A stretch of DNA of 64,000 nucleotides, from the NCBI RefSeq assembly GCF_037975245.1, contig NC_092572.1:1215501-1279500 (forward strand), written 5' to 3'. This document shows, piece by piece, positions 6,991-48,907 of the stretch (positions are counted from its first letter, which is position 1; every line of letters starts with the position of its first letter). The stretch is from Apostichopus japonicus (lineage: Eukaryota > Echinodermata > Holothuroidea > Aspidochirotida > Stichopodidae). The notes under the pieces were generated by a model. That model saw only the letters and a program-made list of their open reading frames with translations, did not search any database and had not been told where the DNA came from. The position numbers and the translations under genes were made by a program.

Positions 6991-7156
6991 AATTGTCCGG
7001 GAAAACATCAGATATTTATACGATCTCTAACTGTCCTTTCCGTAAGATGTTGCCTTTAAGCACAATATTCATATCAAGCATAAACAATGACTTCAATGCT
7101 ATATTCAAACCTTCTATGAATGTAGGGTCACTGTATATATAAGATACACAATAACT

Positions 7157-10100
7157 TACTGAATCGTTACGTTAATCTTTGTAGCGATGTACGTTGCGAT
7201 CTCAAGTATGTCGTTGTCTTCAAGTTTCTTCTTACTAATCACAACACGTTCAGCATTTGGTAATGGTACTTTCGTGAGAAACTGTACAGAGAAGTCCCCC
7301 TCAAAGACGAATGTCCCGTTAGGAAGCTATTGAAACATTAAGAGGAAATAATATTTATTTTTTATCTCTTCATTAAGCATGAACACGAGGAGCAGAATCC
7401 CATGTCCACACACGGGCCTACACACAAACACAAGTACATACATTACTGCTTGATCCCACATCATAATGTGAAGTCGACTCCATATTATTGTGCAAACCTA
7501 TGATACCTCCGATTAAGTCAGACCAATCCACCTAGTTTTAGTTCAGTACCCCAAGGGTGTGAGGTGGGCAATAATTGTAGCACAACATTTAGTAAAAGTG
7601 TTCGATAGAGTACAGTATATAATTCCCAGTACGCTATGTTATGGATGAGATCATTATAACCGTATTTCCTACTACGTATTCAATGGAATAGAGACAACGT
7701 TCATCGGTACAGTTATATCTATGGATTATTTATGTGGAGTACTCATTTAACAAGTTGATGTTGTTAATTCCTTTAAGGGAAATACGTATTTTTAGTTGAT
7801 TTGGACAGTGGCTGAATTTGTTTCATTAATTTACCATATATGCAACTCGTAAAACACGTAAAACAAAACAATCTAAGACTTACATTTTCCTTTCTACAGA
7901 AAGTGAGAAAGTCTTCAATATTATGTTGATGATATGGGATCTCCGTCTTTGTAATGGTAATCTCTTCCTTCTTATTTATGGTATTAATTATTCGTTGTCT
8001 TACTGGAAGGTCAACTTCATGAAAGCAATCAATAAAGACATTCCACATTTCCTGTTTTTTAAGTGCATTAAGAATTTTTGTTTGCTGAGTTTCATCGTCG
8101 CTTAAACCAGAAGCGAACATTACGGCTGAATTGAAATCATCATTCATCGATTTAGTCTGGCAGGATAACATATTTCCTGGTAGCTCCGGCAGCAAATAAT
8201 GTCCCAAAAAGAATTTCTTAAAAAATGGGGACGCAGCATTGACACAATTGTCAGGAATCACTGTACTAAGATTCGCCTTTGAATGGTATGAGTCTACATT
8301 GTTTGAATCTACTTTAAGGAGTCCAATTGACAAAGCCTCTTGGAAAAAATAGCTCCGACTTTCTTCTTGCCAATACTCGATTGATCTCCTTCCTTTATAG
8401 AACGCTTCTCCAATGGTCTTTCGCAGGGCTAAAAATTCAGACTTGTCGCAATGTTTTTTGTTACCCTTTGTAACATAATGTCTTTCCATGCTATTGACGT
8501 GTGCTTCCAGGATCTTTGATAGACGACAATGATCGCCATGTTCATTGCCCTGTTTCGTTACTTCCATGGCGTTTAAATACAACCTTGTAGTAACGAATAA
8601 TGGAACCTTATACAACTCTTTCAAGAATTCTTTTGAATAACTGAGCGAATAAATCATTTTCTTTACGATGCTGTCGTCTGTCTTTCTATTGTGTTCGTTC
8701 TGACACGAGTATGACTGCATGCTCATGACTGTCTTGTCAAGTTCACCGGTACCACTTTCATCATCTATAGTGTTACTTTCGTTATTACAGTCCCCATGAT
8801 CAGTGCTTGGCTCTGGGCTATCCAAAAGAGAACTATTTTCCGTGATTGGTTGCTTATTTCTGTCCTTGTGATATACAGTTCTCGATCGATCATGGTATAA
8901 ATACATTTTCGCACATAAGTCCTTAACTTGGTTCTCGTTGAATCCTCTCAACTCAATCGTGAGGAATTCATCGGTATATGAGAAATTTAAGTTACGTGAT
9001 GCTACCCACATTCTCATTTTGTGATATTGCTGTACTGTTGTTGTTAATTGAGCGAGATGCTTATATTCATTTTCTTTAGTGTCCAATTGAGTCCCCGAAG
9101 TGCTTGCTTTAGTTAGGTGTTCTTCCTTCTGCATTTTGTTCCTTTGTTGAACATTTATTGCACTGCACAAGTCACTCAATCCGTCAATAAGAACAATTAC
9201 AGGTTGATCTGACAAGATTTTCTTCACGTCGATAGTTTCTATTCCTGAGTCATCGGGAATGTCAGTCATTATTATATCAACGAGACACATCTGATTATTA
9301 CTGTCAGTCAGATGTATGTAAATCAAAACGAAAGTTTTTTCGTCTTGTTGGATCCATTGGCTTAACATCTTCAGAATCAATGTTGTTTTCCCAAATCCTA
9401 GACCAGCCGTCAACGCCACCAATTTTTCTGTTGGTGGATTTTTATACAGCGTTTGTGTAGATACTTCGTATTGGCCTTTGTTTTTCGGTCTTTTAACTAT
9501 ACACTGGCTGTCCACGTAGATGGTATCAATATCAACGGGTACCGTTTCATGGTGAAAGATGTTGATATAAAGGTGTTTAGCATAACTATCACAAAGACAA
9601 GAAATGAACCTTGATAGATTCTTATCTTTTTCTGCAAAATAAAAAAGAAAACAAACTCGCTTTATAAAAAAGGCATAAGTCGATTCGTAATTTTACAGAG
9701 AAAACTTTCAAAATCTTCTATAATGTCTTTCCTTCCCTAAATATTAATTAGGTTTCCTTTCATATTACCTTTATTCCTAATTCGACAGTTGACTAACAAC
9801 CTTTTTCACATCCTGCACACCTCTGATCGTTTCAAAGGGCCATTCTTGACAAGCCAAGACCTACCTAGAGACACCAATATAACCTGCTGGATTTTTTTAG
9901 CTTATGGTACTGTATCAGGATTAACGTCAAACCCCACCTCTGTCCAGCATGGTACTATAAAATGTTTCCTTCCCTCCAGGTAGATTGTCTGCAAAGTTCA
10001 CCTCTCGGAATCAGATTCTTTCCCCAGTCACAGTATACACGCAAACAAAGTGTTACATCACTCGAACTATCTCAAGGTTTTCCTTCCTTATCCTCTTTTT

Positions 10101-13100
10101 TACCTCCATTACTAATTACTTCATTTTGCTACTTCCCTCAGATTTTATCTCCCCCTGAGTCCTCTCATTGCATATTCCTATCATATGACTTGATGTATTT
10201 ATTGTTGTCATAATCATTGCTCACTCCCCCAGTTTATTTACATGTCCATTTGTGTGTCTTTTTATGTTCTTAGTTTTTATTCGTTTAACTTAGCTCAGAA
10301 GATCCTGCTGGTATCGAAAGGTCAGACCCTCTAAATTGTACACATTTATATATATTTTCCGTTTTTTTTAGCAGTAGACAAGCAGTTTGCTACCATGATT
10401 GCCCTTTTAACAAATTTGATATCAACAATCAAACATCCAACTTACTATTAAGTGATCTCTGTTTCTGCGATTTGGTGTTGAAGTTTTCCATTTTTTCATG
10501 TGACCCTTCCTGAAAAAGTTAAGCATAGTAAATTATCACAATTATATTTTACGGAGTTGTGTAAGGCTACATTTTTATCTTTGAATATCCGAAAATTTGA
10601 AGAATATATTACATTTAAATACATTTACAGCTACCTCTCTAATATGCAAATGTCAAGTTTAAGAATTATAATGCAGACATCATAAAGACTTTATTAACAA
10701 TAGACCAACAAATATTACTATTAAAAATTAATTCGGACCTTACCTGTTCACTCATTGCAATGGTAACTCCATCGCTTTTTGCACGCTCACCTCCTAAAAA
10801 TAAAATAAAACTTTCTTGGTAATAACGTCAATTAAAGAGATTATGTATTAGTCGTTTTTGCAGCCTATGTTCTCAGTCGTTACGTCGCAGACTCGGTTGA
10901 TCATATACATTTATTTATGTTGAAGTGTATATTTTGATATAATATAAGTGTACATTATGATATAATAATATAATATACACTGAAGTGTATGTTGTGATAT
11001 TTACTATCAACCCTTAAAAGTATCTAACCAGACTTTTTTATAATTCTTTTTTATAATTTAATTTTAAAACTTTTTATTCGCACTTTATATGTGACTCTTA
11101 CTTGTGATTAAGTGTGAAGGATGTATTGTAAAGTATATATCATGATATAAATTAGCAAGCCCAAAAAAATATCTTACCGTACTTTTTCGTTTCTTGCCTT
11201 CCATTAGTCTTCTTTCGTACATAACAAGTCAGGAGAATTAGAGAAACTACAAAAATCACCCCGACGAGAGATATCACTACCCACAACAACCATGGTGGAT
11301 TATGCAATTGTGGAGATACTGTAGAAGTAATTTCAACAGCTGGCTCTCCTGTTAGACAGGGATCTAAATATATAAAATCAAACAGTTTAAAACTATACAT
11401 TTTACAACACAACAAGTGTACAATCTGACAATACTTGGATCATACTTGTTTACTTGAGTGAATGCCTACTGCTTATAATTTGCATATATTTCAAACCGTT
11501 GGTGTGACTTACGTGCACCACGTAGACTGTTGGACACCTAGTATTTCTATAATAATCCTAGACGTTATCGTTGTGAAACTGTTTCTTCTATGATTTTTAT
11601 TTGTTTTTGTTTTGTTTCTGGTTTCTTATTATCGCTTGTTTTGCATATTGCTATGTATACGCTACATGCTTTAAAAGAACATATCTTTTTTATATTACTT
11701 AACTGGAAGTAAACCACTATCATGTCGTTCTATTGAACATTCATTAATTTATGCTCTGGAAAAAATTTAAATGACTATAGTCGGTCAACATAAACATAGG
11801 CATGTATATTACATTACAGTCACAATTATAAAGAAAGATCTAACGAATAGACGTGTTTACTGACACTTAATTTGTACTAACCAGAGGTTACCCTGACGTA
11901 ACTGTCTTTACGGTGCAAAAGGTTGATGTCATCTTGTGCCAGACATCTTATATCAGCAAAGCCTCCGCATGCGTCGAACGAGTATTTGGCAGATGTAGAT
12001 GTGTCCCATGTGCCCAGCTTTTCATTTTTCTTTGAAATAGATTCGCCTGTAGTAAACTGGAGATGCTCGCTATGTTTAATCTCCAATCGAAGCGGTACTT
12101 TTGGTCGGGATGCAGTAACAGAACATTGTAACTGGCCCGTTCGGTTTATTTGTAGTGAACAACTCAAACATGACGAACACTTAGCAATCAGTGGACATCC
12201 CTGTCGTGGACTGACTGGAAAAAAATATATGCAATTTATATTGGCTGTTTTTTGCAGTAAACGAAAAGTTGCATTCCAAATTCTATGTTTTAATCAACTA
12301 TTGCTCTCTGGGCTGTTTGAACACGTTCTTCACCTAGGCGAACAATAGGTAGGTCGATACGACACGTGAAAATTATTTTCAAAGTAAAGAAAAAAATCTT
12401 TATTTTACAGGAAGATTTTTTAAGTAAACAATACTTTAAGTAATGAATGCAATGTATACTGCTTAATTACTTACAGAATAATTAGATAAGGAGACATACT
12501 GAAAACGATTTCAGACTTTGAACTAAGACATACACTAATACGAAAATATAAAATCACCATCCATCAAAAAATGTCATCAAAGGCTTCATATTTAAGTACT
12601 TTGCAAGGTTCTGTATAGAGTTGTGGTTGTATCTACAAATAATTACTATAAAAATGACAAGATACCTTTTATGCTGACAGTAATGCTTTCTGTTTCGTAA
12701 TTTCCTGTTGCAAAGAATGCTACCACGGTATATACAGCCTCATCTTCAAGTTGGGCGTTCGAAATGATTACATCGCCGTTTGATGTGATGTCAAATCTAC
12801 TGCTGTCATAAAGAGTTCCTGATTTGATGTTGTTCTCCAAAGCAAGGATAGGACTTGTACTAGATGTCGATCCAATGTACCATAGCACCTCTGTTGGAGG
12901 TTCAGATGTATTACATCCGATCGTTGCATTGTGTCCCTTCTCGATTATAATATTTGACGGACAGTTGAGCTGCACACCTATGAAGAATTAAAGATGATTA
13001 ATAATTTGCTATTAATTTACATGCATCTTTTTACTTGTATTTTGTTCATAATAGTACAGTCCATACTGCGTAGTTATTTTACCTTGCTAGATTTCATTTA

Positions 13101-14112
13101 AGTAGTTCAGTGGCTGTCAAAAAACAAACGAAACTATAATTATCTAATTTCCCATTTTATGGATAAACTGCTAACATAAGTAACAAATATTTCTGATGAT
13201 GAAGAACGTTATCCATGGGTGGATCTAGGTTTACCAACATTTGTTTGAACGTTCAGAGCAACGATGATCAACGATGAAATAGGTAAACATAAGAAAGCTG
13301 TACCAGACAAAGTGTGGAAGCGACAGCATATCTTACTCTTGGGAAGATTCGCCATTTGAAGATTTTTAAGTTTGATGATACAGTTGTGTGGGTGTTTACA
13401 TTATGTTATTATGTGTTAATAAGACGTTTTCTAATTTCATATCTTGAATCGAAATCAATAGGCCGGGTACCAATAGACTGCAAATTGTAGTTATTTCGGT
13501 TTAGTTGTCGGCTGCTGTGGCTGACTGAAAATTTGAAATATAGTAACTAACTACCTCGTGTTGTGTTAGTTTAATATCTGCATCAATTAATTTTCGGACG
13601 AAAGCAGTATCTACTATGTATGTTATTTTGCACCTGATTTATGCATTAATTTGTATCTTTGGTAAAACAAGCAGGCGGCATTTCTCCTCTTATCTTATAA
13701 TCCTCTCCTCCTTTCGTGCCCTCCCATCATTAGTTGGAATTCGATAAGCAAATCTATTTAAACAATTACCCAATATCTTGTCATATCATGCTCCCACCAT
13801 CCCCCACCCCCCCCCCCACATCTCTTCTTTGTGATTAAGAGAGAAGCAGTCAGTCAGTAAGTTTCCGCAGTGATGGTGGTTTATTTTCTATATCTGTGTG
13901 TGTAAATCGTACTACCGGTAAGCAAAAGTGTAAAATTTTGTGGATTATATTAATTACGCTACTGCTTAACCAGTCAAACAGACAACGTGCAAACCCTGGC
14001 CTATTTGTATTATTATGTTACAGAGTTACGTGTAACAATCATACTTACCTGTGAAAGCACTAGATGCAAAAACGAGGACAAGCCAAGCCGAGGTTATGAC
14101 AGGCACCACCAT
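7157..14112 (-). CDS. Membrane-anchored NLR-like receptor: signal peptide, 2 Ig, TM, NACHT (copy 1)
   Basis: Eight exons fit GT-AG borders and phases: 14112-14049, 12977-12666, 12214-11882, 11363-11178, 10793-10744, 10509-10446, 9631-7884 and 7326-7160. They give about 974 residues without a break. Residues 1-21 are a signal peptide (MVVPVITSAWLVLVF). Residues 22-125 form an Ig-like domain with B-strand Cys and Trp, but VYTVV where the F-strand Cys belongs. Residues 126-236 form a Cys-rich second Ig-like exon. Residues 261-285 are a TM helix (WLLWVVISLVGVIFVV) followed by RKK. Two tiny linker exons lead to the NACHT region (about 337-919) and an LRR-like exon (920-974). The inferred role is a surface sensor with an NTPase signalling domain inside the cell. 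Codon 975 is CAG followed by TAA, which overlaps the last donor. The protein therefore either stops there (7157) or splices to exons I do not find. It lies divergently from the ITIM receptor at 14796. Confidence 0.8.
7884..9631 (-). CDS. NACHT exon of the copy-1 gene
   Basis: This single 583-codon exon holds the NTPase core of the Ig-TM-NACHT protein. The N-terminal part contains IDTIYVDSQ, like the segment that precedes NACHT in many invertebrate NLRs. Walker A is AGLGFGKTT (Lys at about residue 418). Walker B is VIVLIDGLSDL (Asp at about 486), where the usual DGxDE is weakened to DGLSD. A sensor-1-like MRMWVASRN and then ELRGFNENQVKDLC follow, as in NACHT proteins. LKELYKVPLFVTTRLYL fits the helical and winged-helix part, and PFFKKFFLGHYLLP fits the usual H-x-x-x-Q-E-x-x-A region in degenerate form. 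Whether it hydrolyses nucleotide cannot be judged. The exon starts phase 1 at an AG acceptor and ends at AAT|GTAAGT. Confidence 0.85.
10018..10368. repeat. About 350-bp insert present only in copy 1
   Basis: The flanks CTCTCGGAATCA and TAGCAGT are adjacent in copy 2 (about 42540-42565) but separated here. The insert holds pyrimidine-rich sequence and, near 10295-10335, AGATCCTGCTGGTATCGAAAGG, a phrase that resembles common 3' tails of invertebrate retroelements. It lies in the intron between exon 6 and the NACHT exon. Either an insertion in copy 1 or a deletion in copy 2 would explain it. Confidence 0.45.
10915..11005. repeat. Short AT-rich minisatellite
   Basis: Three or four imperfect units of about 25-35 bp share (T/A)GAAGTGTAT, then a TTGTGATAT-like end. 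They lie in the intron after the TM exon. The copy-2 intron (43140-43200) has fewer units. Confidence 0.45.
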
Positions 14113-14795
14113 GATGCAATGTGCGCTATTGAAAACAAAAACAGTCTGAAAACATGCATGGCTTCCTGAAGTCGTCTGATGCACTTTGAACATGAGCATC
14201 TCATACACATGATAAAATATAGTTTTCTCTTTCGATGCCAGTAGTGCACTTACTACTAGACAAATAGAAGATAGTAAGTATTGAGAAAGGCGTGGATTAA
14301 ACAGAAAGTATATATTATGTCTTAGAATAGTAATGACACGTTAGAATACAACTATGTCAACCAATTTATTTGCTTAAAGTAGGAACAATGAACATCTTGG
14401 AGCAATCATATTTAGTGACACGTTTAGCTATCAGTTTCATTACCAACATGAAGCGTTGGACAGAAAAAAATATGATGGTTAAATTGAGTGAGCCTTATGA
14501 AAAATGCTGTGATATATCACAACTCATTCAAAACGTCTCAGTTCTGATCGTCTGTCAAGTAGTCAAAATTACAGTCCAAATGTTTGTATTACAGTTGGTG
14601 AACATTGACGCCTTTGTATTTGCAGTAATGAACGACACACATTTCCGAGCGTTCCTTCTAGGTAGCCGTAGATGAATGATACTTTCTTTTACCTCGACCC
14701 ACAACATAGTATATCCGATCAACCTTCCTGTCCAACTTTCATTTATATATGTGTATTTCTTTTTCTCAGTCGGAGTTAAATAGTAATCGAGTGAT
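14113..14795. promoter_or_regulatory. Putative bidirectional promoter of the receptor pair
   Basis: These 683 bp separate the start codon of the minus-strand NACHT receptor from that of the plus-strand ITIM receptor. The region must hold both 5' UTRs and promoters, unless upstream noncoding exons exist. A TATA-like TTATATATG lies at about 14742 on the plus strand, 50 bp before the ATG. On the minus strand CTATATTTTATC lies near 14215. In copy 2 the corresponding region is disrupted by unrelated fragments (48160-48900). Confidence 0.5.
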
Positions 14796-17788
14796 ATGAT
14801 TCTGTGGTGTCAGATCGCATTGCTCTCTTTGTTCACAATTGCTAAAGGTAAATATTTGCTATTAATTTACAGATCAACCATAGTATGTTGTGTACTAATA
14901 TTAATGGGGATATCTAATTCCTTTTCATCTTTCAGGAGAGCGGCGATTTGACCGTGAGTGTAACTATGGGAATACTTCGACCAGTTCTCAGCATGTGAAC
15001 TGCATATGCTCGCGAAATTCGTCGATCTGTTTAATTTGCAATGTATCGAAAAGTAGCCACAATCTTACTTGGTACAACGACATCACCAACCTTATCTTAG
15101 CCAGACAATCATTCAAGAAAACAAATACTGAAAGCTTCGAAGTAGATCGATGCAATTCTTCAAATTATTCCATTCTGCTCCTTACGCCTTGCAGTAAAGT
15201 AAATCAAGCGAACTACTCATGTCTTCAAGGAGAGACTAAGCTAATGACATTCATCTTGACATTGCAAGGTAAATTTCTCAAATATTACAACAAGATATTA
15301 CTACCATATGAACATATTTTAATTATGATACATGTGACATGTAGACAAGTTTGTAATTATATATCAAATTACTTGGAGTTATACGTTATATTTTAACTTT
15401 ATTTGTTAATCATTTAATTTCTTTAATAACTACATAAGTATTAATAAATCATAAATAGGAAGTATTGTGTAAACGTTTGCTATTTGAAGAGTTGTTAATT
15501 ATTACTCAATTTAGTTTTCCTTGGTTCACTTTATTTTAAAGCATTAGTAATTATCAACTTTTTCTCTCATATATCAGTGACGCCAATTGTTATTATAAAT
15601 GGAACCAACTTTATCAGAGGTAATTCATTGTCTGTGAAGTCAGATAAGATTATAACATTTGAATGTATTGTGATGGAAGCAATTTTACCAATTACAACTA
15701 CATGGTACACAACAAATGGAATGGAAACGAACAATGTCACAGAAGTTTTCAACAACGCAACAGTCGCAATTTCGTACTATACTGTGCGTGTCACCTCAAA
15801 TTTTAAGTTGTATTGTTCTGCGGAAGGTCCTTATATAGCGAAGCGAACGACGTCCTTGTCAGTAACTGTTGAACAGACTGATGGTAAGTGGGTCACTTAT
15901 ACTTCAATTAAGGCTGCTTTTTGAATTGACCTTGCTAAGACACTGCTAAATGAAAGGTAGAGTTCTTCAAAACAAAATCAGGCAAATTGTCCATTACCTT
16001 TAATTCGGTATACAATATTTCTGTATTGTAAAATAGGTTTTTCAAAGCAGATATCGGCACATTATTAGGACACGTTTTAAATAATGTTGTTACGTTAATT
16101 AACGAACAGAAAAGTATGTACTAAGATTTATGTTGAAGCACACAGTGGTAAAGCTTACAAGCGGTTAGATCCATTCACAGTGCAGTAAAGTTTTCTTAAA
16201 TGGAAGATGAAATAAGTTTTCGGGACGATTGTAGGAATTTTCCCCTTTACAAAAAAAAATGAACAAACTGATGGTAAGTTGGTCACTTGTACTTCAATTA
16301 AAGCTGCTTTTTGAATTAAACTTGTTAACACACTGCTTAATTAAAAGCTAGAGTTCTTCAAAGCAAAATCAGGCAAATTGTCCATTACCTTAAATTCGGT
16401 ATAAAACATTTCTGTATTGTAAAATAGGTTTTTTTTCAAAGCAGATATCAGCACATTATTCGGACAAGTTTTAATTAATGTTGTCACGTTAATTAATGAA
16501 CAACAAAAGTATGTACTAAGATTTATGTTGAAAGCACACAGTGGAAAAGCTTACAAGCAATTGGATCCATTCACAGTGCAGTGAACTTCTCATATGGAAG
16601 ATGAAATATTTTTCGGGACGATTGTGGAAATTTTCCTCTTTACAATTTACCACCACATTGTCCAAAAGATGAAAGGGTTTTAAGAGTACCATAAGTATGG
16701 AGAGCGGTTGATACTTAAATAAATCAATACTGAGAGTTCTCTGTAGGGTTCACACACTTTTTTCATTAGTTGTTTTGATATTCTCAATGCTTTTCATTCC
16801 TTAAGTTAACTGCAATTATATTTACGCCTGGAAATATACTTAAAGTTCAGAGTTTAGTAAACTGTCATTTTAAAGGGTTGGTGTTGTGGAGAAATTATAT
16901 TCTCGCATATGAATACCAAAAGAAACGATAAGTATTTCTTAAAGATGAATATAAATATGGAAGGTAACTCGCAAAGTAGCAGCAAACATGTATCGGGTCT
17001 GGATATGCTCCTACAGTTTTTGTTTATGTCTACTAATTATTCACATTTTAAAATGAGTGATAAGTATAATGTTTAAGTTTTCATGTGGATATGTTTTCAC
17101 TTGTAATTCTACCATTTCTTATATATTAATGTATACCATTCTAAGTTTTACCACTGCAAATATTTATAGTTCAAATTGTAATGAGAATTAACAGATACAG
17201 ATGTTCATTTGCAGAAAATAACTCGGTGTTCAGGAACGAGATATCGATTGCTTTAGCTTTTATATCAACTCTCCTTGGCATATTAGTGATATTGTTTCTT
17301 CTCCACAACATGAAGATAATACGTGAGTATCAGCAGTAGAGCGGTTGTAAAATGTGGTATGTATATGAACTTCAACTGGTATATCCCAATATCATTAGAA
17401 TACTCGCAAATCTTAATACTTTGAAGCCAAAAAGCGGATCGATCGGGTGCAGAACATTAATACAATTCTACAATAGTCTTGCTTTGTACACTTTATACAT
17501 ATCTTATAAATTTACAAATTACAAATTTACACTATTTGAAAACGGCATAAAACTATTTTGGTTTCTTTCAGCATTACTACAGCAACGGTGTGCACGAAGG
17601 TAAGATCCCAGTAACAGTATGTAAATTGTTTATTTCCACAGTGTAACCGAAAAAACAAACAAATATATATATATATATATTAAATATATATATATTAAAT
17701 ATATATATATATATGTATGTATATATATATATACATAAATATATATATATATATATATAAATAAATATATGTATGTATATTTATATAT

Positions 17789-17857
<69 letters not shown>

Positions 17858-18191
17858 TTTGGCTAATATGTTACCAATAAATATTTTAAATAGTTTTGTA
17901 TAGTCATGATGAATGAGTCTAACAAGTAATCTAAATGTAGTTCAATGTCATGACAAGATTCGCAAGAATTATGTTACATGTTTAAATGGCTGACTCATTT
18001 ACAAGCAGTGCTTACATTCTTCAACATTCGTATATTTTATCTCATTACACATATTTTTTTTCTGGTAATAATCTTTTCAAAGTCAATTCGGAAGACAACC
18101 TCATAGTGCTGGTTCACCAGCTACCGAAGAAAGTATCTACAACGTGTGTTATGAAAGCAGCGACCTCGGATATGCTCCAATACCTCACTAA
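14796..18191 (+). CDS. Ig-domain receptor with cytoplasmic ITIM (copy 1, intact)
   Basis: Six exons fit GT-AG borders and phases: 14796-14847, 14936-15268, 15578-15883, 17215-17322, 17572-17599 and 18083-18191. They give 311 residues with no internal stop. Exon 1 is a signal peptide ([18 protein letters not shown]). Exon 2 (18-128) is a Cys-rich Ig-like domain with CLICNVS, LTWYND and YSCLQG. Exon 3 (129-230) is a second Ig domain with FECIVM, TTWYT and KLYCSAEG. Exon 4 carries the TM helix (about 240-260) and a short stop-transfer region. The tail contains SIYNVCY (Tyr 295, Tyr 299) and ends with LGYAPI (Tyr 306), which fits the ITIM consensus [SIVL]xYxx[ILV]. The inferred role is a surface receptor signalling through SH2 proteins such as SHP phosphatases. 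Two AATAAA signals follow the stop. No orthologue is recognised, so no symbol is given. Confidence 0.8.
15871..16650. repeat. Tandem duplication of about 390 bp over an exon end
   Basis: GAACA(G/A)ACTGATGGTAAGT occurs at 15871 and 16261, and the following sequence matches to about 16640. The unit includes the last 13 bases of Ig exon 3, its splice donor and about 375 bp of intron. The second donor has no acceptor or open exon before it, so it is probably unused. Copy 2 has only a single, shorter version. Confidence 0.85.
17661..17853. repeat. Compound (TA)n microsatellite
   Basis: TA runs are interrupted by TAAA and TATG units. It lies in the last intron of the ITIM receptor. Copy 2 lacks it. 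Confidence 0.95.
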
Positions 18192-18359
18192 CTTGACGAA
18201 AACTACGAAATCAAAGTAACACCAACTTGATTGCTGTCTTTATAGTTACTTGTTTGGAGTATACGTATTCACTTTGGTTATAAAATCGTTATAAAATATC
18301 ATCCAGATGTCGCAATATTGAACTTAGTTTATGATTTAACTATCTATATTTAGATTATG

Positions 18360-18383
18360 AATAAACATAAACACTTTAATAAA
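18360..18383 (+). promoter_or_regulatory. Polyadenylation signals of the ITIM receptor
   Basis: AATAAA occurs at 18360-18365 and again at 18378-18383, 170-190 bp after the stop codon. At the matching place in copy 2 (about 52085-52115) both hexamers are mutated (AATCGA and GATAAG). Confidence 0.6.
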
Positions 18384-19280
18384 TCAAGGTGTGTATAACA
18401 GATAGAATGAACGATTTCCATGATAGTTGTACATTTCATGGGATGTTCTACCTGCAACGAAACCGTAAGTGCAGTATGTAGTCTCCACGGCAACACTATT
18501 GACTTGTAGTTATTGTTCTTTATCAAGTAACGCACATGTAATAACTAAATGCAGGCTTCTGCATTTTCACTTTCCATTGTCTGTATGAACCGCTAAATGG
18601 ATACAAGTATTTCAAAGCGAATGAGGAACTTGGTTATTGATTCAACTCAAATTGGGACACTAGTCAAACGTACTTATTATATGTTTGTTTCACACTGTTG
18701 TCGCTTACACTCCAAGTCTTATTGATATACGAACATATTTTGCTTTCTTATTCGATATTATTTCATTTTCTATTTGTACAGGGAAGTAATCGACATGTCT
18801 GTGTCATTACTGTGTTGATTGAAATATTCAAAGTATACATTTACCTGGATGATCTGACTAAAACTGAATGATTAGTGCTATGTTTATTTCACTTCCAATA
18901 TCATATCTTTGACACCCTTTGCAACAGTCAAGCATTTAAATAAGCATTTTAAGCAGTCTTGCAGTATTTTAGCACATTTATGTCAAGTTCTTATATTAAC
19001 TAAATGTTTGTTTACTAAGATACTTCAAGGACTATAGGTAACAAAATATATGCACTCGGAAAATGATAATTGACTTTTTTGCCAGTATTTTTTAAATCAA
19101 ATGAACAGATTGAGCAATCAAGCAACGTCCGTGGCTGTCATTAATACTGAATTGTAGGGAGAGGGAGGGTCATATAGTTTCGTCGGCTTCTTTCATGTTG
19201 TCAGAGTAATCATTCTTACTATGCACTTATACCTATCGTCATAAAGTTAACGTGTTTACATCTCAAAGAAAAAAACAAAG

Positions 19281-19343
19281 GAATGTGTGGCTAGAAGGAG
19301 ATTACACACCTAAGGCTCTACAAGTTGAGCTACCCAGCCCCAT
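19281..19343 (-). repeat. tRNA-like SINE remnant in copy 1
   Basis: On the minus strand it reads GGGGCTGGGTAGCTCAACTT and then GTAGAGCCTTAGG, a good tRNA 5' half with D arm and A box, followed by an anticodon-stem-like segment. The T arm is not recognisable. The same element is at 52836-52907 in copy 2, so it predates the duplication. Confidence 0.45.
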
Positions 19344-19697
19344 GTTCTTGACGCTCCCCATATACACGTATGCTTTGTCAGAAACCACTGTATACAACCT
19401 AGAAAGCGGCATTTAATTGATTTTAAGATAACCTTTTCATTTGTATGCATTTAATAAAAAATATCAATGTTGCTCCTATCACAGACTTTCGTACATTCTA
19501 CCCAGTAATTGGATATAAAACAATCTTTGTCTAGCAAAGGATATTGTATCTAATTTAAAACCATATGGTATTATTAACCGTGTAATCTAATGTTGTTGCA
19601 ATACGAAAACACCAGACAGTAACTGATCTTGAAAAAATGATACAAATCATGCACTATTTTAATATACTTACTAATTTTACGTAACTGTGTGTTCTAG

Positions 19698-20317
19698 ACT
19701 TGTATCGCAACAACAGCACCATAACGTATGCAAAGGGTGCTTATCTCACTGTTCATGTTTGCACAGAGAGGACATATCAATATTTAAATTTCTATTCAGG
19801 TAAGGTTGTAGCTGCAACGTCATGCTTAAGTATTGGTCAAGTTAAAGAACCAGCTCGACGTCTGTATTGGGTTCCAACTTGAAATAAAAGGTTTCTAATG
19901 TTTAACAATAATCTTACTGTGAAACCTTTATTTAGTTCAATTGTTAGTCAGTACAAACATGCCGGTATAAATCGTGCTTCGGCCAGACATGTTTGTGATT
20001 GTCAAAACGCAATGACGTTTCGGAGCTGAATTCAAAGTCAAATCTTTCTAAATGCGAGTTACTCCGGAAATAACATCTCTTTTACGTCATTAGGTCAACA
20101 TTCAAGGTGGATAGCTACTTTAAGGCTTGATCATGTTAGAACTAAAAATAAATTAAGATGTAAGACTGGTGATCAGTTTGATTGGTCTGTTTTGTCGAAA
20201 AAGACTATTTTAGTAATGTGCTGTCAATGTGCTGAAGAAAATTGCAATCATTTGCTTATATCGATACATTATCACCACACAACCAATGTGGTAAATGACA
20301 TTCGGAAGATCTTTTAA
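19698..20317 (+). other. Possible exon pair of unknown gene
   Basis: An open 102-bp segment (19698-19799) lies between TTCTAG and GTAAGG and is phase 1 at both ends. It reads YAKGAYLTVHV, like the last strand of an Ig domain. An AG at 20093 then opens a frame in the matching phase, with TLRLDHV, QFDWSVLSKK and CCQCAEENCNHLL, up to a TAA at 20315-20317. The equivalent in copy 2 (about 53180-53820) is broken and its donor is ATAAGG. I recognise no family. It could be a downstream gene remnant or chance. Confidence 0.2.
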
Positions 20318-23204
20318 TCAGAAATAATCCTGTTTTTATTTGATATCATTTGAACTAAGTTTACAATGATCATATTGTGACACACAACACAAAACAGGCG
20401 CAGGCAATGAATGTGTACAACACTGTATACAAATTTCTATTCCATTTTTGTCGCCTTCACATGGACATACAACTGCAACAACTATATATAGAGTATGTAA
20501 CGTTTATTATATATTTCGTAACATAGGTCAATGTCAAAAGAGCTTACATACTACACATAGGCCATGTTATTTACATAGACCTAGTTGTGAACAGATGTGA
20601 ACTGTGAACAAAGTTATGTCATAAGTTTACCGTATCATACGACTACCTACGCTGTGTTAATACCTTTAGGCAGAAGGAAGTCAACCTAAACTTGAGGCAC
20701 AAACCAGAATAAATAAGCCAAACGAGTTGACATTTTGCAAAAAAAAAAGTATCAGCAACTGGTTGATGTTAACACATGATACTATTTAAAGCAAAGAAAA
20801 TGCTGAAAAAGAAAATACTTTTTTCCCCTCAAAATGTAAACAAAATGGTGGCTATGTTGGCAATATTGAGTCAGACTGGCTAATTGACCACCATGTTATT
20901 TGCCGGTTTATGTTATACTTACATATGGCCTCACCGTATTGTCCACAACTGAGTTTGAAAATCTTCTTCACGTTGGTTAGTTTGTTATTGATTCAACCGA
21001 ATTGAAACTGGATTCAGACTAACTGTAACTCTCGGTTGTCATTGTAGGCCACGTACTAATGTTTAATGTGTTGAGCCATAGGGCTAGATGCTCGTTATAC
21101 ATAGCATTGGGTAATTCCAATCACGTCATATTCAAATTCAATAGAACCAGTTGGTATACCAATATAAACAAGTACAGTGAATAGCATTTCCATGGTCTAC
21201 AAAGAAATGACTACAGCGGTTCTACAACTACAATAAGTTTACCTATGCAGAAATCGTTACAATCTTAACAGACGTGCATAAGTACAATACAATGGAATTA
21301 AGCTCTTTTGTTAGCAAGGAACAAAATTGGCTATGAAAATTGTTATGTTGTACTCCATATATGCCATAGCCAAGCATATTTAGGGTGATAGTATATGCCG
21401 AGTGGGTGGATATACGTATGCGTCAGGCATTGGCGTAACTAGCGGGAGTGGAGGTGAGGGAGCCCAGTCTCACCTCTGGCCCCATCCACCCAAATGATAT
21501 GGAGGGCAAAAACTTTGGACGAAAATGATAAATGCATTGAAAGGCTCAGTTAAACCAGTTGTAACCTTCAAATAGTAACAGATATCAAGGTCTTATTATG
21601 AACAACGTTAAGTCTAACTGTCTTTCAGTTGAAGCTGTCGTCACTCAAGATTCCATACTTGTGTCCGACCTTTTTATCATCTTTTTTGACGCTCTTTCAC
21701 GCCAGTTATTTATTTTTTGCTGACGATGTCAAAATTACAACTTTTCTTTTCACGGCTAGATAATGTTTGCAGAACTCACCACGATGCGCTGATAATATGC
21801 TACTTAATGTTGAAAATTGGTATTTTTTCATACAATGTTGTGAATTGTCAGGTCTGAAGCTTTTTTAATACATTCCAGACAGTGATCATGTATGATCAAG
21901 TATTATGATTTGCTAGCAAATACACAGTCCAATATATCACATGGTTTAAATGTAATCACTAGCAAGCACTATGAGTCTTTCTATATGTTTCTACTTTAAC
22001 ACATCTCTTTTACCACATCTTGTATATTCATGAGAGCAGAGAAAGGAGTGCTGATGTTATGTGGCGTTGAATGAGAGCCCGTAATACTAACCATGTGAAT
22101 GTATCAGAACTCACCGCCTCTTTGTATAGTATACTAAAAGACGGTCTCTTTTGCGTTCATATGCGATTAAAGTGTTGTTTTATTGATGGAACAGAACAAT
22201 AATGATAATAATAATATTGAAAATAGCAACACACATAGTTCCAAAGGCTCACTATCTCGTTGTTTCTCAATATCTAACACCTATAATACCCGCATTAAGT
22301 TGCATAGTTGGACATATTTGATCCATAACAAAATAGATGGGCAGGGTGAATTAATGCAAGGGGAGTTCTGAACCATAAATTTGCCAAACTGCAGTGTACT
22401 ACTAAGCATTTGGCTGAATCAATCACGATTTAGCAGGCTAAATGTTCATCGGTACTGTTAACATAGCTTTTAAAGTCATATTTGAGTTGATGATACAGAA
22501 AAGGGCGACGATATAGAAGTTGTCTGTAACTAGGATAGTTGGGTTAGTATAAGGGTCTTCTGCAATACAGTCTACTGACCATTGGTTTCGTAGAAAACGT
22601 AAATAATAATTAAATCCCCCAGTTATATAATACATAAATATATACATTATGTATAACGAACATTGTGCTTGTCATTTAACTACGGGTTTTCATTATATAT
22701 CATCCTCCCTTATTACTAACATTAGTATAAACATCAACGGCAAATCTTTACCGTAGGTATATATTACGCCATTTTTCAAATACCTAAGGTATGTCAAATA
22801 AGTAGCTTGCTATGAATAATACGTTAACCTCGTAAGGTATATTGTCGTATATACGTAAGGTTTATTGTCGTTAAATATGGCATAACGCTCGTCTTTGAAA
22901 GAAACCTAGCTTTTAACAGCTACTCATGTATGTCATGTTTGATATAGCGCATGCCGTTTTTTACTTTACAAAACAGTAACAAAGAAAACCCCAATAGGCA
23001 TAGACCAACCTTAAACAAACATTTAAACAAACCGGTGAGGGTGAATTTTCAGCCTCGTGTTTACGCTCAACTGAAGAAAAACGTTTATGATTTATACTTA
23101 ACACAAATAAAGTAAAAAATATGCTTTCTTTGCCCCTATATAAAGGAATAGGGGCAAAAAAATGATGTCAAAGTAAGCATACACCAAGCAGGAGTCACAT
23201 GTTA
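20318..23204. other. Noncoding stretch, no gene seen
   Basis: The end of duplication copy 1 lies near 21320. A repeat-like end, GGCGTAACTAGCGGGAGTGG, sits near 21433, with an inverted GAGGTGAG..CTCACCTC pair at about 21451-21477. Otherwise the sequence is AT-rich without plausible exons. Confidence 0.5.
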
Positions 23205-38200: not shown

Positions 38201-40123
38201 TATTCCCGGTAAACATCATCTCCCGTTAGTGATCGAAAGATTTGACATTCATAACATTAAGCATACATAGGGAATTTCGGTGACGTTCAACCTGCTTCGA
38301 GAAGTCATAGCAATCAATTCGATTGTAGAACTTAATGAGCTAAACAACCATCAATATTATGTCCCTACCTCATGATATGGGTGGTTTTTGGAATAACATT
38401 GATAAACAATGCAATGAATGTTTAGCTCACTTGATGTGATACATCAATTATGCTGATGTTACCAGATGCATTCACAAAGATATCACTAAAATAAAATATA
38501 TATTTACAAAATGAGGATGGTATTGCGATATACATATTCAAGACTGGGTGACTTTCTCAAACGTTGCTTTCTGATATGTTAAACGTAATCTGAAGTGTTT
38601 GCCAAAAGGAACATAACCTCCAGCAATTTGGGTAAAGCTTGAAACTCTGGAAAACCATTATTGGTATTCTTTCCTTTCATCCCGAGTTCCATGTTCAAAG
38701 TTACAGATCGTCCGGGTGTCAATATTCTTCCAAGATTCGCCTGTTGAGTATACAACTGCAAAATATAAGAAATACCAACCACTATTTAGCTATCACATTC
38801 TTCGACTAACATTTCGACGGACAGAGTTGTTACTGAACGACGACAGCAAACAATATGATATTATATTTCAGCTCATGCAGGAACAAATTCAGCTTTACGA
38901 AGCTGAGTGGGTTGACAGCTATCGGATTGATAAAGAATATCATATTACTGCAAGTTAATATTCTTCGGTTTTAAAAACAAGTAACCTTTTAATTTGAAAA
39001 TAAACGTGTTTTTTTGTTACTTACTTGTAAATTGTTTCTGCCTCTTTACAATGTTACCAAGCTTAGTAATAGTTTCTTGAGAAAATGTATCCATAGCGCA
39101 ATTGTGAAACCTAAGAAAAGGTATGAAAATACATTTATTTATTTGGCACATAAACTGTCTAATATATGCGTGATCGCCATCTGAAAGACTTTCATGTTTT
39201 AAAACTTCATATCTGAAAATGAGGAAACAGTTACGTTATAGTTAACCAGCTTACACATGAATTAATGAATAATGTGTTAGTCGTTCAAAAAGGTAACTCG
39301 AACATCAATGATAGTGTAGACCAATTGGATTTCCCAACGTGCAATGTACAATCTGTTTCAAGAAAACATTCCATTTTGCCTGTTTGTTTAACACGAATAA
39401 AAACTCAAGTTTATTAACAGTCATTTTGTCGGAACACTGTCCCCTTGCAAATAATGGAAGCTTGTGAGTATAACTTCCATGTCACTCCTGAGAAACACAT
39501 TTAAAGACGTATGATTGGTTAAACTTTGATCTGAAATGACCTTGAATTTATTAACTTGATAAACACCATTCATAACAAGCACGGACAATGACTGCAAATA
39601 CTATTTTCAAACCTTCTACAAATGTATAAGGTCACTGTAAAAGATAGATACAAAATAACTTACTGAAGCTCTACTTCAATCTTTTTAGCGATGTACAATG
39701 CTATATTAAGTATGTCTTTGTCTTCGAGTTTATTCTTACTTATCACAAATCGTTCAGCATTTGGTAATGATAAGTTCGTGAGAAACTGTACAGAGAAGTC
39801 CCCATCAAAAACGAATGTCCCACGAGGATACTATTGAAATATTAAGAGAAAACAATACTTAATTAATGTTCTCCATTAAGCATGAACACGAGGAGCAAAA
39901 TCCCATGTCCACACAAGGGCACACACACACACTTACACACATATCCACTTCAAAAAAGTTAAGTCGACTCCATGTTATTATGCCAACCTATGTTACCTAC
40001 GATTATGTCAGAACAATCCACCCATTTTCAGTTCACTACCTCATGGGTGTGAGATGGGCAGCAATTGTAGCGCAAATTTAGTACCAAATTACGAGGTGCC
40101 ATGATAATAGTTCATCGGTGCAG

Positions 40124-40230
<107 letters not shown>

Positions 40231-40418
40231 ATGTTTAGCACTCACTTAACAAGTTGATGTTGTTCATGTCTCAAAGATAATGACGCATTTTACTAGTAGT
40301 CGATTTGAACAGCGGATGAATTTGTTCCATAATTTTAATGTATCTGTAAGTCTTAACTATGGCTAAATTCGTTATAAAATTTATATGTATACCATCATGT
40401 AATGCGAAGAAAACTTAC

Positions 40419-42165
40419 ATGTTCACTGCTACAAAAAGTGAGAAAGTCTTCAACATTATGTTGCTGATACGGGATTTCCGTCTTTTTAATAGTAATCTCT
40501 GCCTTAATATTCATACGACGAATCATTCGTTTTCTTACTAGAAGGTCAACTTCATGAAAGCAATCGATATAGACATTCCACATTCCTTGTTTTTGAAGTG
40601 AATCAAGAATTTGTGTTTGCTGAGTGTCATCGTCGCTTAAACCTGAAACGAACATTAAGGCTAAACTGAAATCATCATTTGTCAATTTACTTTGACAGGA
40701 TAAAATATTTCCTGTTAGGTCCGGCAGCAAATAATGTCCCAAAAAAATTCCTTAAAAGATGGATACGCTGCAACGACACAATTGTCAGGACTCACTGTAC
40801 TAAGAGTCGCATTTGAATGGTATGAATCTACATTGTTTGAATCTACTTTAAGGAGTCCAATTGACAAAGCCGCTTGAAAAGATACAATCCGACTTTCTTC
40901 TTGCCAATACTCGATTGATCTCCTTCCTTTATAGAACGCTTCTCCAATGGTCTTTCGCAGGGCTAAAAACTCAGACTTTTCGCAATGTTTGTTGTTACCC
41001 TTTGTGACATAATGTCTTTCCATGCTATTGATGTGTGCTTCCATGATCTTTGGCATACGACAATGATCGCCATGTTCATTGCCCTGTTTCGTTTCTTCCA
41101 CGGCGTTTAAATACAACCTTGTTGTAACGAATAATGGAACCTTATACAACTCTTTCAAGAATTCTTTTGAATAACTGAGGGAATAAATCATTTTCTTTAC
41201 GATGTTTTTATGTACCATTCTATCGTGTTCCTTCTGACACGAGTATGACTGCATTCTCAAGACTATCTTATCAAGTTCACCGGTACCACTTTCATCATTT
41301 ATATGTTTACTGTTGATAATATAGTCCCCAGGACCAGTGCTTCGCTCTGATCTAGCCAAAACAGAACTATTTTCCGTTATTGGTTGCTTATTTTCTTCCT
41401 CGTGATCTACATTTCTTGATCGATCATGGTATAAATACATTTTTTCACATAAGTCCTTCATTTGGTTCTCATTGAATCCCCTCAACTCAATCGTGAGGAA
41501 TTCATCGGGATATGACAAATTTAGGTTACGCGATGCTACCCACATTCTCATTTTGTGATTTTGCTGTACTGTTCTTGTTAATTGAGCAAGTAGCTTATAT
41601 TCATTTTCTTTAATGTCCAATTGTGCACCCGAAGCGCTTGCTTTAGTTAGGTGTTCTTCCTTTTGCATTTTGTTACATTCGTGGAAATTTATTGTACTGT
41701 ACAAGTCACTCAATCCGTCAATAAGAACAATTACAGGTTGATCTAACAAGATTTTCTTCACGTCGTTAGTTCCTATTCCTGAGTCATCGGGCATGTCAGT
41801 CATTATTAAATCAACGAGACTCATATGATAATTACTGTCAGTCAAATGTATGTAAATCAAAACGTAAGTTTTTACGTCTTGTTGGATCCATTGGCTTAAC
41901 ATCTTCAGAATCAATGTAGTTTTCCCAAATCCTAGACCAGCCGTCAAAGACACCCATTTTTCTGTTGGTGGGTTTGAATACAGTGTTTCTGTAGATACTT
42001 CGTGATGTCTCTTGTCTTTCGGTCTTTTAACTATACACTGGCTGTCCACGTAGATGGTATCAATATCAACAGATACCGTTTCATGGTGAAAGAGGTTGAT
42101 ATAAAGGTGTTTAGCATAACAATCACAAAGAAAATAAATGAACCTTGATAGATTCTTCTCTTTTT
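40419..42165 (-). pseudogene. NACHT exon of copy 2, one-base deletion
   Basis: It keeps Walker A (AGLGFGKTT), Walker B (VIVLIDGLSDL), MRMWVASRN and ELRGFNENQMKDLC. It is 1747 bp against 1748 in copy 1, the missing base being in a T-run near 40741. Downstream of the shift the frame GHYLLPDLTGNILSC continues open to the donor at 40418. A sequencing error in the homopolymer would also explain this. Confidence 0.8.
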
Positions 42166-45100
42166 CTGCAAAATAAAAAGAAAACAAACTCGCTTTATAA
42201 AAAAGGCATAAGTTGATTCGTAATATTACAGAGAATAAGCTCTTGTCGAAATCTTCTATAATGTCTCTCCTTCCCTAAATATCAATGAGGTTTCATTTCT
42301 TAATACCTTTATTCCTAACTCGTCAAATGACTAAAAACCATTTTCACATCCTGGACATCTCTGATCGTTTCAAAGGTCCATTCTTGACAAGCCAAGACCT
42401 ACCTAGAGACACCAACATAACCTGCTGGAATTGTTAGTTCTTGCAACTGTACCAGGATTAACGTCCAACTCCACCCCTTTCCAGCATGGTACTTTCAAAT
42501 GTTCCCTTCTCTCAAGGTAAATTGTCTGCAAGGTCTACCTCTCGGAATCAAGTTTTGTAGCAGTGGTCAGGCAGTTTGCTAACATTTTTGCCGTTTGTTT
42601 TACAAACTTGATATCAATGAATCAGACAACTTACTATTAAGTGATCTATGTTTCTGCGATCTGGTGTTGAATTTTTCAACTTTTTCATGTGCCCCCTCCT
42701 GAAAAAATTAAGCAAAATAAATTCTCACATTATTATTTTACGAAGTTGTGTTAGGCTACATTATTATCTTTGATCGAACATTTCCGAAGAAAAATAAAGA
42801 ATATAATACATTTATATATATATACATTACGAAATAAATTTACAGCTACCTCTCTCATATGCCAATGTCAAGTATTACTTTATAATGCTGACATCATATA
42901 GGCTTTAGTAATTTAACACAAATCAAAATCAAAATATTACTGTTGAAAATTCATTCGGACCTTACCTGTACACTCATTCCAATGGTAACTTCATCGTTCT
43001 TTGCACGCTCACCTCCTAAAAAGTAAATACAACTTTCTTGGTTATATCGTCAATTTAAGAGCTAATGCATTATTCATTTTTGAAGCCTATATACTCAGTT
43101 TTTGCATCGCAGACTCGGTGGTGCATACTCATTATTTATGTTGAAGTGACAGTTTAATATATAAGTGTGAAGGATGTATACTAAAGTGTATATTATGATA
43201 CTTACTATCAACCCTAAAAGTATCTCACCATACTTTTTCGTTTCTTGCCTTCCATTAGTCTTCTTTCGTATATAATAAATCAGGAGAATTAGAGAAACTA
43301 CTAAGATCACCCCGACGAGAGATATAACCACCCACAACAACCATGATGGATTATGCAATTGTGGAGATATTGTAGAAGTAATTTCAACATATGGCTCTCC
43401 TCCTGGACAGGGATCTGCACAGATGAAATAAAACAGTTTACAAGAAAAACGTTATGTAATCAACTAAACATTTAATAACAAAACAAGTGTACAATTTGGA
43501 CAATACTTGCACCACGTGTACTTGAGTAAATGCCTACTGCTAATCACTTGAGTGCATTTCAAACCGTTGTTTGACTTACAGACACCACGTAGACTGCTAG
43601 ACACCTAGTAGTTCTCTAAAAATCCTAAACGAACGTTAACGGTCTCAAACTGTTACTCTTTGTTTGTGTTTGGTTTATTATGATTATCGCTTGTTTTGCG
43701 AATTTCTATGTATGCGTTAAAGCTTTAAAAGAACATTTCCTGGAAGAAATGTAATTGACTATAGACGCTCAACATAAACATATACATGTATGTTACAAAC
43801 ACGGTCACATATATATAATAAAGAAACATCAATTATATATACACGCTAAAAAACCTATTCATCATTTGTTGGCTTGACTAATTACAAAATAATCAGATAA
43901 AGTGACATATTGAAAAACTATTTCACATACGGACATACAATAATAACAAAAGTAAGTTATCATTTTTTCTTTTATCAAATGCTTTATATTTAAGTATTTG
44001 GCAAGATTTCGTATAGATGTGTCGTTGTATCTACAAGTGATAACTGTAAAAGTGACAAGTAAATGAATATGAGGTACCTTTAAAGCTAACGGTAATATTT
44101 TCTACTTCGAAATTTCCGGTTGCAAAGAATGCTACCACGGTATATACATCCTCATCCTCAAGTTGAGCGTTCAAAATTATCACATCGCCGTTTGAATTGA
44201 TGTCAAATCTACTGCTGCCATACAGAGTTCCTGATTTGAGGTTGTTCTCCAAAGAAAGGATAGGACTTGTCCTGGATGGCGATCCAACGTACCAAAACAC
44301 ATCTGTTGGAGGTCCAGATGTATTGCATCCGATCGTTGCATTGTGTCCCTTCTCGATAACAATATTTGACGGACAGCTAAGCTGCACACCTATGTTCATT
44401 TAAAGATCATTAATGTTGTGGAACCTGTTGGCAGGCAACCATTTATTGGTATATAATTGGTAAATAATATGATTGTTAATATTGCGCAGTTATTATACAT
44501 TACTAGATTTCATTTCAATATTTCAGTGGTTGTCAAAAACGAAAACAAAATTGACATCATCTAGATTCCTTTTTTTTTTTTTGTAAACTGCTAACATAAG
44601 TAGGAACTGTTTCTTATGGTGGAGATCGTGATCCATTAGTGGATCTGTTTCACATGTTTTGAACGTTTAATGCAGCGTTGATCAACGGAAATCCCACAAA
44701 CAAAAAATAGTATGGCATACTATGTCATTTGACGACTCGTTTGCTAATACAGTTGCGTGGGAGTTTACATTTTGTTGTAATGTGTTAAAATGTAGTTTTT
44801 TTATTATTAACCTTTTCCCTTTCATCCACTTTTCCTTACCTCCCCTTCCCCTCTTGAGTTAGAATTCGATATGCAAATATATTTCAACAATTACCCAATA
44901 TGCTTCCACATCATATCTATCCCAATATGTTTTTACATCATACTCTGCCCTCCCCCCCCCCCCACCCACCTCCTCCTTCTTTGTGATTAAGAAAAAAACA
45001 GTTAGGCGCATTCATATTCTGTCAGTAAATTTCCTCAGTGATGACGTGGTTTTATTTTCTATATTTGTGGATGAAACGCCTTACCCCAGAACCATTAGTG

Positions 45101-45267
45101 TTTAAATTGTGTGCATCATATTGATTACGCTACTCATTAAAACTGAATAAGTCAACGTGTAGAAGCCCTGGCCCATGCTTATTACAATGTTACGGAGTAA
45201 ATTTTAACAATCATACTTACCTGTGAAAGCACTAGGTGCAAAAACGAGGACAAGCCAAGCCGAGGTT

Positions 45268-48129: not shown

Positions 48130-48299
48130 AGGTTATGACAGGCACCACCATTATGCATGTGTGCTTTACAAAAAAAAAAACAGTATGAGATAACATGCTT
48201 GGTTTGCTGGTTGTCTGATGCAAATATTTGTTCGGACCATTGTATAAATTTGTCAATTTTGGAGTTCACCACAGCATTGTACAAAGATGATTTTAGTGT

Positions 48300-48900: not shown

Positions 48901-48907
48901 CTTTTAG

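Follow-up and report, generated by a model that had tools for sequence, protein, structure and literature searches.

NLRs are textbook sensors of the cytosol. In the sea cucumber Apostichopus japonicus, the protein AjNLRC4 has been described on the membranes of coelomocytes, with two immunoglobulin (Ig)-type domains outside and a NACHT domain inside the cell (PLoS Pathog 2021; PMC8699970). According to the excerpts of that report, which like those of the other papers cited are the source of the statements made here, AjNLRC4 was amplified and expressed as a single open reading frame, binds microbes via its Ig part, promotes the phagocytosis of Vibrio and binds β-actin by its inner part with a Kd of 5.87 µM (PMC8699970). 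AjNLRC4 (MN607598) has also been tied to a caspase-1-like protein and to MLKL (PMC11932488). A second A. japonicus protein composed of Ig, transmembrane and NACHT parts, AjNLR-new, appeared in 2026 in a paper that speaks of such genes in the species (PMC13133943). The gene analysed here, copy 1, has this build and is located on the minus strand of a 64,000-nucleotide stretch of the genome of A. japonicus, a holothuroid echinoderm (C12:1215501-1279500). This stretch is called the window, and positions refer to it unless C12 or another contig is named; the assembly searched comprises 671.6 Mb in 35 contigs. A duplicate of the gene in the same window is called copy 2.

As described in the excerpts, AjNLRC4 resembles the predicted product of copy 1: both stem from the same species, both combine an Ig-like and an Ig domain outside with a transmembrane part and a NACHT domain inside, and both are devoid of a CARD. 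AjNLRC4 is reported to have transmembrane segments at residues 483-503 and 776-795 and NACHT at 600-757, with no LRR reported, whereas in the copy 1 product a single transmembrane segment (262-280) precedes NACHT (about 414-578), and the protein has an LRR-like end. AjNLR-new (PIK48001.1, 1197 aa) likewise unites Ig, transmembrane and NACHT parts in one protein, but it was reported with two transmembrane segments and its NACHT domain outside, whereas the copy 1 product is predicted the usual way round (PMC13133943). Of the 53 NLRs described for Chiridota heheva, an apodid sea cucumber, 6 have additional domains, among them an Ig V-set domain said not to be found in sea-urchin NLRs (PMC8913654, 2022); their likeness to copy 1 is one of published description. 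The NLRs of the sponges Amphimedon and Dysidea contain transmembrane segments and are putatively membrane-bound, like the copy 1 product, but the excerpt mentions no Ig ectodomain (PMC12909245). Nothing on an Ig-transmembrane-NACHT protein appears in the excerpts of PMC4852459 or PMC11797021. Vertebrate NLRP3, NLRC4 and NOD2 arrange NACHT, a helical part and an LRR-like end in the same order as copy 1, which differs from them in having an ectodomain and a transmembrane segment in place of CARD or PYD, a much shorter LRR part and altered Walker motifs.

Since AjNLRC4, AjNLR-new and the V-set NLRs of C. heheva have been published, the Ig-transmembrane-NACHT design is already known. An earlier note on this DNA had proposed a membrane-anchored NLR, binding ligand outside and carrying the NLR engine inside, as what would be a distinct immune-sensor design. 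The arrangement fits the gene, its paralogues and the predicted fold; the claim of a novel architecture had to be abandoned, as Ig-Ig-transmembrane-NACHT was published for A. japonicus as AjNLRC4 in 2021 (PMC8699970). New relative to AjNLRC4 are a subfamily bearing an LRR-like end, Ig-linked NACHT loci numbering at least 44, of which some are broken, and one genomic chimera.

The eight exons of copy 1 have GT/AG boundaries and compatible phases and are joined in frame, in the order signal peptide, V-set Ig, second Ig-like domain, transmembrane segment, two linkers, NACHT and exon 8. Over the 676 residues of the query region, the product and the A. japonicus protein P0001 from NCBI are identical. 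On these three grounds (boundaries, phases and P0001), the phase-matched joining of signal peptide, two Ig domains, transmembrane segment and NACHT read by the earlier note is borne out for copy 1. The exons are as follows.

14049..14112, minus strand: exon 1, start codon and signal peptide (MVVPVITSAWLVLVFASSAFTG); ATG at 14112, GT donor, phase 1; start of P0001, hydrophobic segment 2-20
12666..12977, minus strand: exon 2, Ig domain 1 (V-set), Pfam V-set E 7.7e-10; AG/GT boundaries, phase 1-1
11882..12214, minus strand: exon 3, second cysteine-rich Ig-like domain; 100% to P0001 126-236; strands in the AlphaFold2 model, two-Ig folds over 22-238, no Pfam match
11178..11363, minus strand: exon 4, encoding a membrane-proximal stalk and the transmembrane helix; segment 262-280 by hydropathy (score 3.03), then LTCYVRKK; AlphaFold2 helix 262-288
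10744..10793, minus strand: exon 5, cytoplasmic linker; splice sites, 100% match to P0001 299-315
10446..10509, minus strand: exon 6, cytoplasmic linker; splice sites, match to P0001 315-338
7884..9631, minus strand: exon 7, NACHT NTPase and following NLR helical part; Pfam NACHT E 2.2e-06, 639-codon open frame
within 7884..9631, minus strand: Walker A AGLGFGKT and Walker B VLIDGLSD of exon 7
7160..7326, minus strand: exon 8, where the LRR-like end begins; the exon runs to a GTAAGT donor, beyond which P0001 continues

The earlier note had placed the end of the gene at 7157. This is wrong because the TAA overlaps the GTAAGT donor and P0001 extends 60 residues further, through two exons outside the window that match at C12:1207573-1207662 and 1207208-1207309. 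The gene thus covers about 22 kb, of which the intron following exon 8 takes up about 15 kb. All eight exons are open, with their splice sites in place. The introns that follow exons 1 to 4 are all in phase 1, so that the exons for Ig1, Ig2 and the transmembrane segment are symmetrical, and neither their loss nor their exchange would shift the frame.

In a Pfam scan, the V-set domain was recognized in the first Ig open reading frame and NACHT in the NACHT open reading frame alone, with 28 bits against a cut-off of 26.7. When compared by sequence with solved structures, this reading frame yielded as its sole match an unrelated kinase (E 0.64), which is why a profile of 24 family members, some truncated, was needed; it matched NLRP3 (E 1.7e-05), NLRP9, NLRC4 and chain 5irm (NOD2). 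The Pfam and profile matches confirm the NACHT domain that had been recognized earlier by its Walker A and B motifs. An NLR-type NACHT with a short LRR-like end in the inner part of copy 1 is supported by the profile and by fold comparisons. For the second Ig domain the Pfam scan gave no match; in the AlphaFold2 model, residues 22-238 align to two-Ig-domain structures. The domain search called for in the earlier note therefore recovered V-set and NACHT, and left the second Ig and the LRR without a Pfam match. The prediction of a signal peptide and a transmembrane segment agreed with that note: hydropathy analysis of P0001 revealed one signal-peptide-like segment and one transmembrane segment, and no second transmembrane segment. 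Sequons number 3 in the 262 residues before the transmembrane segment and 7 in the 754 residues after it; per 100 residues they are denser before this segment in 14 of the 15 proteins computed and equal in P0009. The predicted signal peptide, Ig ectodomain and single transmembrane segment are those of a type I receptor of the Ig superfamily, and the first and last of these disfavor a cytosolic location. The Pfam scan of P0001 listed no CARD, PYD, Death or BIR domain, so that any death signal would require a partner. Because Ig-Ig-transmembrane occupies the position of the N-terminal effector domain, copy 1 is not filed as a classical NLR. The gene model and the paralogues point instead to the AjNLRC4-type design, in which two Ig domains, a transmembrane segment and NACHT belong to one polypeptide. 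Taken together, the evidence supports the gene structure, the predicted orientation, with Ig outside and NACHT inside, and a relationship of the inner part to NLRs.

A search of the assembly with the NACHT exon of the window gave 57 matches, which were merged to 41 loci, both window copies included. The count of Ig-NACHT linkage, which drew on all 57 NACHT matches and on 150 of the 152 Ig matches, revealed a family Ig match upstream, on the same strand and within 12 kb, at 29 of these 41 loci and in the other three orientations at none of them. In a control set of 106 other strong NACHT loci, scored from 487 Pfam NACHT candidates, only 3 had a family Ig match, again upstream only (Fisher p 7e-18, indicative only, the loci being paralogues). 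The difference argues that the Ig-NACHT fusion is a gene family and not a product of chance. When the class C loci, found by the inner part of a further protein, P0010, are added, 44 of 68 loci are Ig-linked (Ig matches on C12, C7 and C21 only; 14 short C-terminal rows of 73 excluded). At 8 of the 68 an Ig match also lies downstream on the same strand, and at none on the opposite strand; the downstream match is taken to be the next unit of the array. In a sample from distant clusters (L029-L036), Ig1, Ig2 and NACHT follow one another in order at 6 of 8 loci, at 20-41% identity; L036, on C7, has four Ig1-type matches and NACHT, and L030 has NACHT alone, as do L023 and L024 in the main cluster. 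These findings suggest that the design of AjNLRC4 is not a single oddity and that loci of such build form large arrays. Three word-based protein searches for the same fusion in related genomes, proposed in the earlier note, returned 8, 10 and 15 matches, all from A. japonicus; two of these searches scored the best 7990 and 7995 candidates by shared words, and absence elsewhere is not implied.

Nine NACHT loci between 1.15 and 2.21 Mb of C12 (at 1158517, 1324189, 1456760, 1528183, 1578234, 1852458, 1936237, 2073292 and 2208207) have no listed family Ig match; each lies on the same strand as a class C or class C-like Ig-NLR locus, about 10-26 kb upstream of it. Such an Ig-less NACHT locus and a class C Ig-NLR locus possibly form a paired unit; the pairing was made by eye, and these loci may have Ig exons that have diverged too far for the search to find. 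The proteins P0019 and P0024 look like transmembrane-NACHT proteins without Ig. Other large NACHT expansions occur on C7 (3.1-12.3 Mb), C12 (27.6-34.1 Mb) and C16, and within them the open-frame lengths are often similar (many of 512 on C7, frequently around 620-640 on C12).

The members of the family differ in their state of preservation. Among the class A loci, L018 contains a TGA near the end of the NACHT exon that removes the LRR-like end, and the NCBI protein P0004 stops where the L018 frame ends, while L019 is open in the exons seen; in class B, the loci L025-L028 show degradation. Among copy 1, L018 and L019, dN/dS values are 0.36-0.52 for Ig1, 0.29-0.37 for Ig2, 0.49-1.02 for the transmembrane exon and 0.52-0.77 for the NACHT exon. 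With copy 2 added, they rise to 1.02 for the NACHT exon (copy 2 with L019) and 1.04 for the transmembrane exon, which gives ranges of 0.29-0.52 in nine Ig comparisons versus 0.52-1.02 in six NACHT comparisons. By these raw values, taken without a significance test, the ectodomain looks more constrained than the NACHT engine. Positive selection on the Ig face was expected and none was seen in these comparisons; the fastest-evolving windows, residues 579-668 and 789-878, belong to the inner part.

P0010 is, by its sequence, a genomic chimera that combines an ectodomain of the copy 1 type with another NLR engine. The ectodomain shares 81-83% identity with the class A proteins P0001 and P0003, compared with 32-33% for P0011, P0013 and P0014 of class C. 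In the inner part the identities are 78-80% with P0011 and P0013, 57% with P0014 and 24-25% with class A. The matched exons of P0010 all follow in order on a single strand of its locus, within 8.4 kb, and the DNA stays similar to copy 1 up to and including the Ig2 exon, the similarity ending about 65 bases into the next intron. This supports at least one exchange of ectodomain and engine via the intron between the Ig2 and transmembrane exons, which is in phase 1 in copy 1. In a non-systematic scan of 13 proteins, in which 13 pairs were compared, P0010 was the single clear chimera. A broader proposal, put forward tentatively and rated below even chances, is that A. japonicus possesses a diversified repertoire of membrane NLRs in which the recognition cassette (signal peptide-Ig1-Ig2) and the NLR engine form separate modules that are swapped when recombination takes place within the intervening intron, so that across the arrays one ligand-binding head could be wired to different engines. 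Array-wide exchange of Ig and NACHT modules was not encountered in the titles or abstract beginnings among the literature matches listed, one listing covering 12 of its 57 matches. As a natural domain swap, P0010 would allow a direct test of whether the Ig head or the NACHT engine sets the response.

We regard it as rather probable that copy 1, which looks intact, belongs to a family of type I membrane receptors of the sea cucumber, composed of signal peptide, V-set Ig, second Ig, one transmembrane segment, linker, NACHT and an LRR-like end, with an uptake mechanism modeled on AjNLRC4, and, with the same degree of confidence, that the family evolves by tandem duplication and decay. The Ig pair would bind a microbial or cell-surface ligand on coelomocytes, clustering driven by the ligand would gather the NACHT domains under the membrane, and the output, by analogy with the AjNLRC4 experiments, would be uptake of the bound particle by actin remodeling. 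Such a receptor speaks for the possibility of operating an NLR engine from the cell exterior. Several observations weigh against this interpretation. P0001, taken as a gene prediction, is named only "uncharacterized protein", and copy 1 is known here from genomic sequence alone. Its likeness to AjNLRC4 is one of described design, from which the presumed function is borrowed, and of the four 25-base AjNLRC4 primers, two matched the window and the fetched loci with at least 6-7 mismatches and two matched nothing within 7. The NACHT score of the whole P0001, 26.6 bits, is just below the Pfam cut-off and that of P0003 is 23.9 bits; for the class B protein P0009 no NACHT was listed in the scan, and in all five proteins scanned Pfam listed no LRR at E up to 10. 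The AlphaFold2 models have low mean confidence (pLDDT 53.7 and 52.1). In Walker A of copy 1, Ala replaces the first Gly, and Walker B reads DGLSD versus DGFDE in NLRP3, from which it is predicted that ATP hydrolysis by the NACHT domain may be weak. Finally, 12 of the 41 related NACHT loci have no Ig match.

These 12 loci would also be expected if two adjacent genes, an Ig-transmembrane receptor and an NLR, had been joined only by the first reading and by the gene prediction, as would the 3 of 19 paralogue loci examined that have NACHT alone (L023, L024, L030), and the gene model does derive from genomic sequence. However, the exon phases match, Ig lies upstream on the same strand at 29 of 41 loci and never in another orientation, the order Ig1, Ig2, NACHT is kept at 6 of the 8 distant loci despite low identity, and for AjNLRC4, which shares the design, a single open reading frame was amplified and expressed (PMC8699970). 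On the matching phases and the linkage count the two-gene explanation was rejected, and we give it almost no credence. An inverted orientation, with NACHT outside and Ig inside, has been reported for AjNLR-new, whose Ig lies between two transmembrane segments (PMC13133943), and the sequon densities on the two sides of the P0001 transmembrane segment barely differ. P0001, by contrast, has its signal-peptide-like segment before the Ig domains and a single transmembrane segment followed by RKK, and sequons are denser on the Ig side in all but one of the proteins computed, which makes the inversion very improbable. Nor is copy 1 itself likely to be a decaying relic of a fast-turning array, an explanation to which we assign only a slight chance: several class B loci, like copy 2 and L018, are broken and some dN/dS values reach 1 (1.02 for the NACHT exon of copy 2 with L019; 1.04 and 1.02 for the transmembrane exon), but copy 1 retains its open exons and splice sites, and its dN/dS versus L018 and L019 is below 1 in eight of eight exon comparisons.

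More weight, although still well short of the preferred interpretation, is given to a receptor for adhesion or for self/non-self discrimination, similar to allorecognition, in which NACHT would serve clustering and the protein would not be a microbe sensor; we consider this unlikely but worth keeping in view. The closest folds to the ectodomain include proteins of cell adhesion and receptors, for example Lutheran, nectins and nectin-like 5, and the lower dN/dS of the ectodomain than of the NACHT exon, in raw values, is unlike what an arms race at the ligand face would predict. The fold matches of the Ig pair are unspecific, however, since T-cell receptors score within 1 Z unit, though at root-mean-square deviations of 11-14, and the Ig part of AjNLRC4, a protein of the same design, is reported to bind microbes (PMC8699970).

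The duplicate at 38658-45267 had been described in the earlier note as preserving the architecture with an LRR-like end. The LRR-like end is indeed present, at about 39.1-38.66 kb, but the architecture is not kept. The features of the duplication are as follows.

7067..21329: copy 1 of the duplicated segment, aligned by blastn in blocks to 39568-55162 at 65-87% identity
39568..55162: homologous part of copy 2 of the duplicated segment, from blastn
45221..48222, minus strand: copy 2 exon 1, split by a long interspersed nuclear element (LINE); exon 1 bases 17-109 at 48222-48130 and 105-151 at 45267-45221
44078..44389, minus strand: copy 2 Ig1 exon, 88.8% to exon 2
43231..43414, minus strand: copy 2 transmembrane exon, 92.4% to exon 4; the Ig2 exon expected before it is absent
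42635..43015, minus strand: copy 2 exons 5 and 6 (42966-43015 and 42635-42698), 90.0% and 89.1% to exons 5 and 6
40429..42165, minus strand: copy 2 NACHT exon, with a frameshift by a 1-base deletion near 40745
39660..39821, minus strand: copy 2 exon 8, 86.4% to exon 8
38661..39106, outer limits approximate, minus strand: last two exons of copy 2 (LRR-like end, C-terminus), matching the P0001 tail

No match to exon 3 (Ig2) was found in copy 2. The LINE (about 45268-48130), which has an (AAATC)n tail and a 5-bp target duplication, AACCT, interrupts exon 1 within the signal-peptide codons. A preserved duplicate was rejected on the missing exon 3, the split exon 1 and the deletion in the NACHT exon, and copy 2 is classed as a pseudogene or, at best, as a truncated gene. 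Being broken, it lends no independent support to the Ig-transmembrane-NACHT architecture.

Reverse-transcriptase-like open frames, apparently of non-long-terminal-repeat elements as classified by eye, are present at 28771-31305 (minus strand), 45650-47997 (minus strand) and 59487-60308 (plus strand); the second of these is the LINE inside copy 2 exon 1. At about 14788-18640 on the plus strand lies a divergent neighbor gene, duplicated at about 48.8-52.4 kb, in which a signal-peptide-like exon, two Ig-like exons, a transmembrane exon and a tail were read by eye; its exons were duplicated jointly with the Ig-NLR gene. The tail contains LGYAPI, which resembles an immunoreceptor tyrosine-based inhibitory motif. 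A further Ig-like open stretch, again recognized by eye, occurs on the plus strand in both copies of the segment, at 20030-20314 and 53631-53834.

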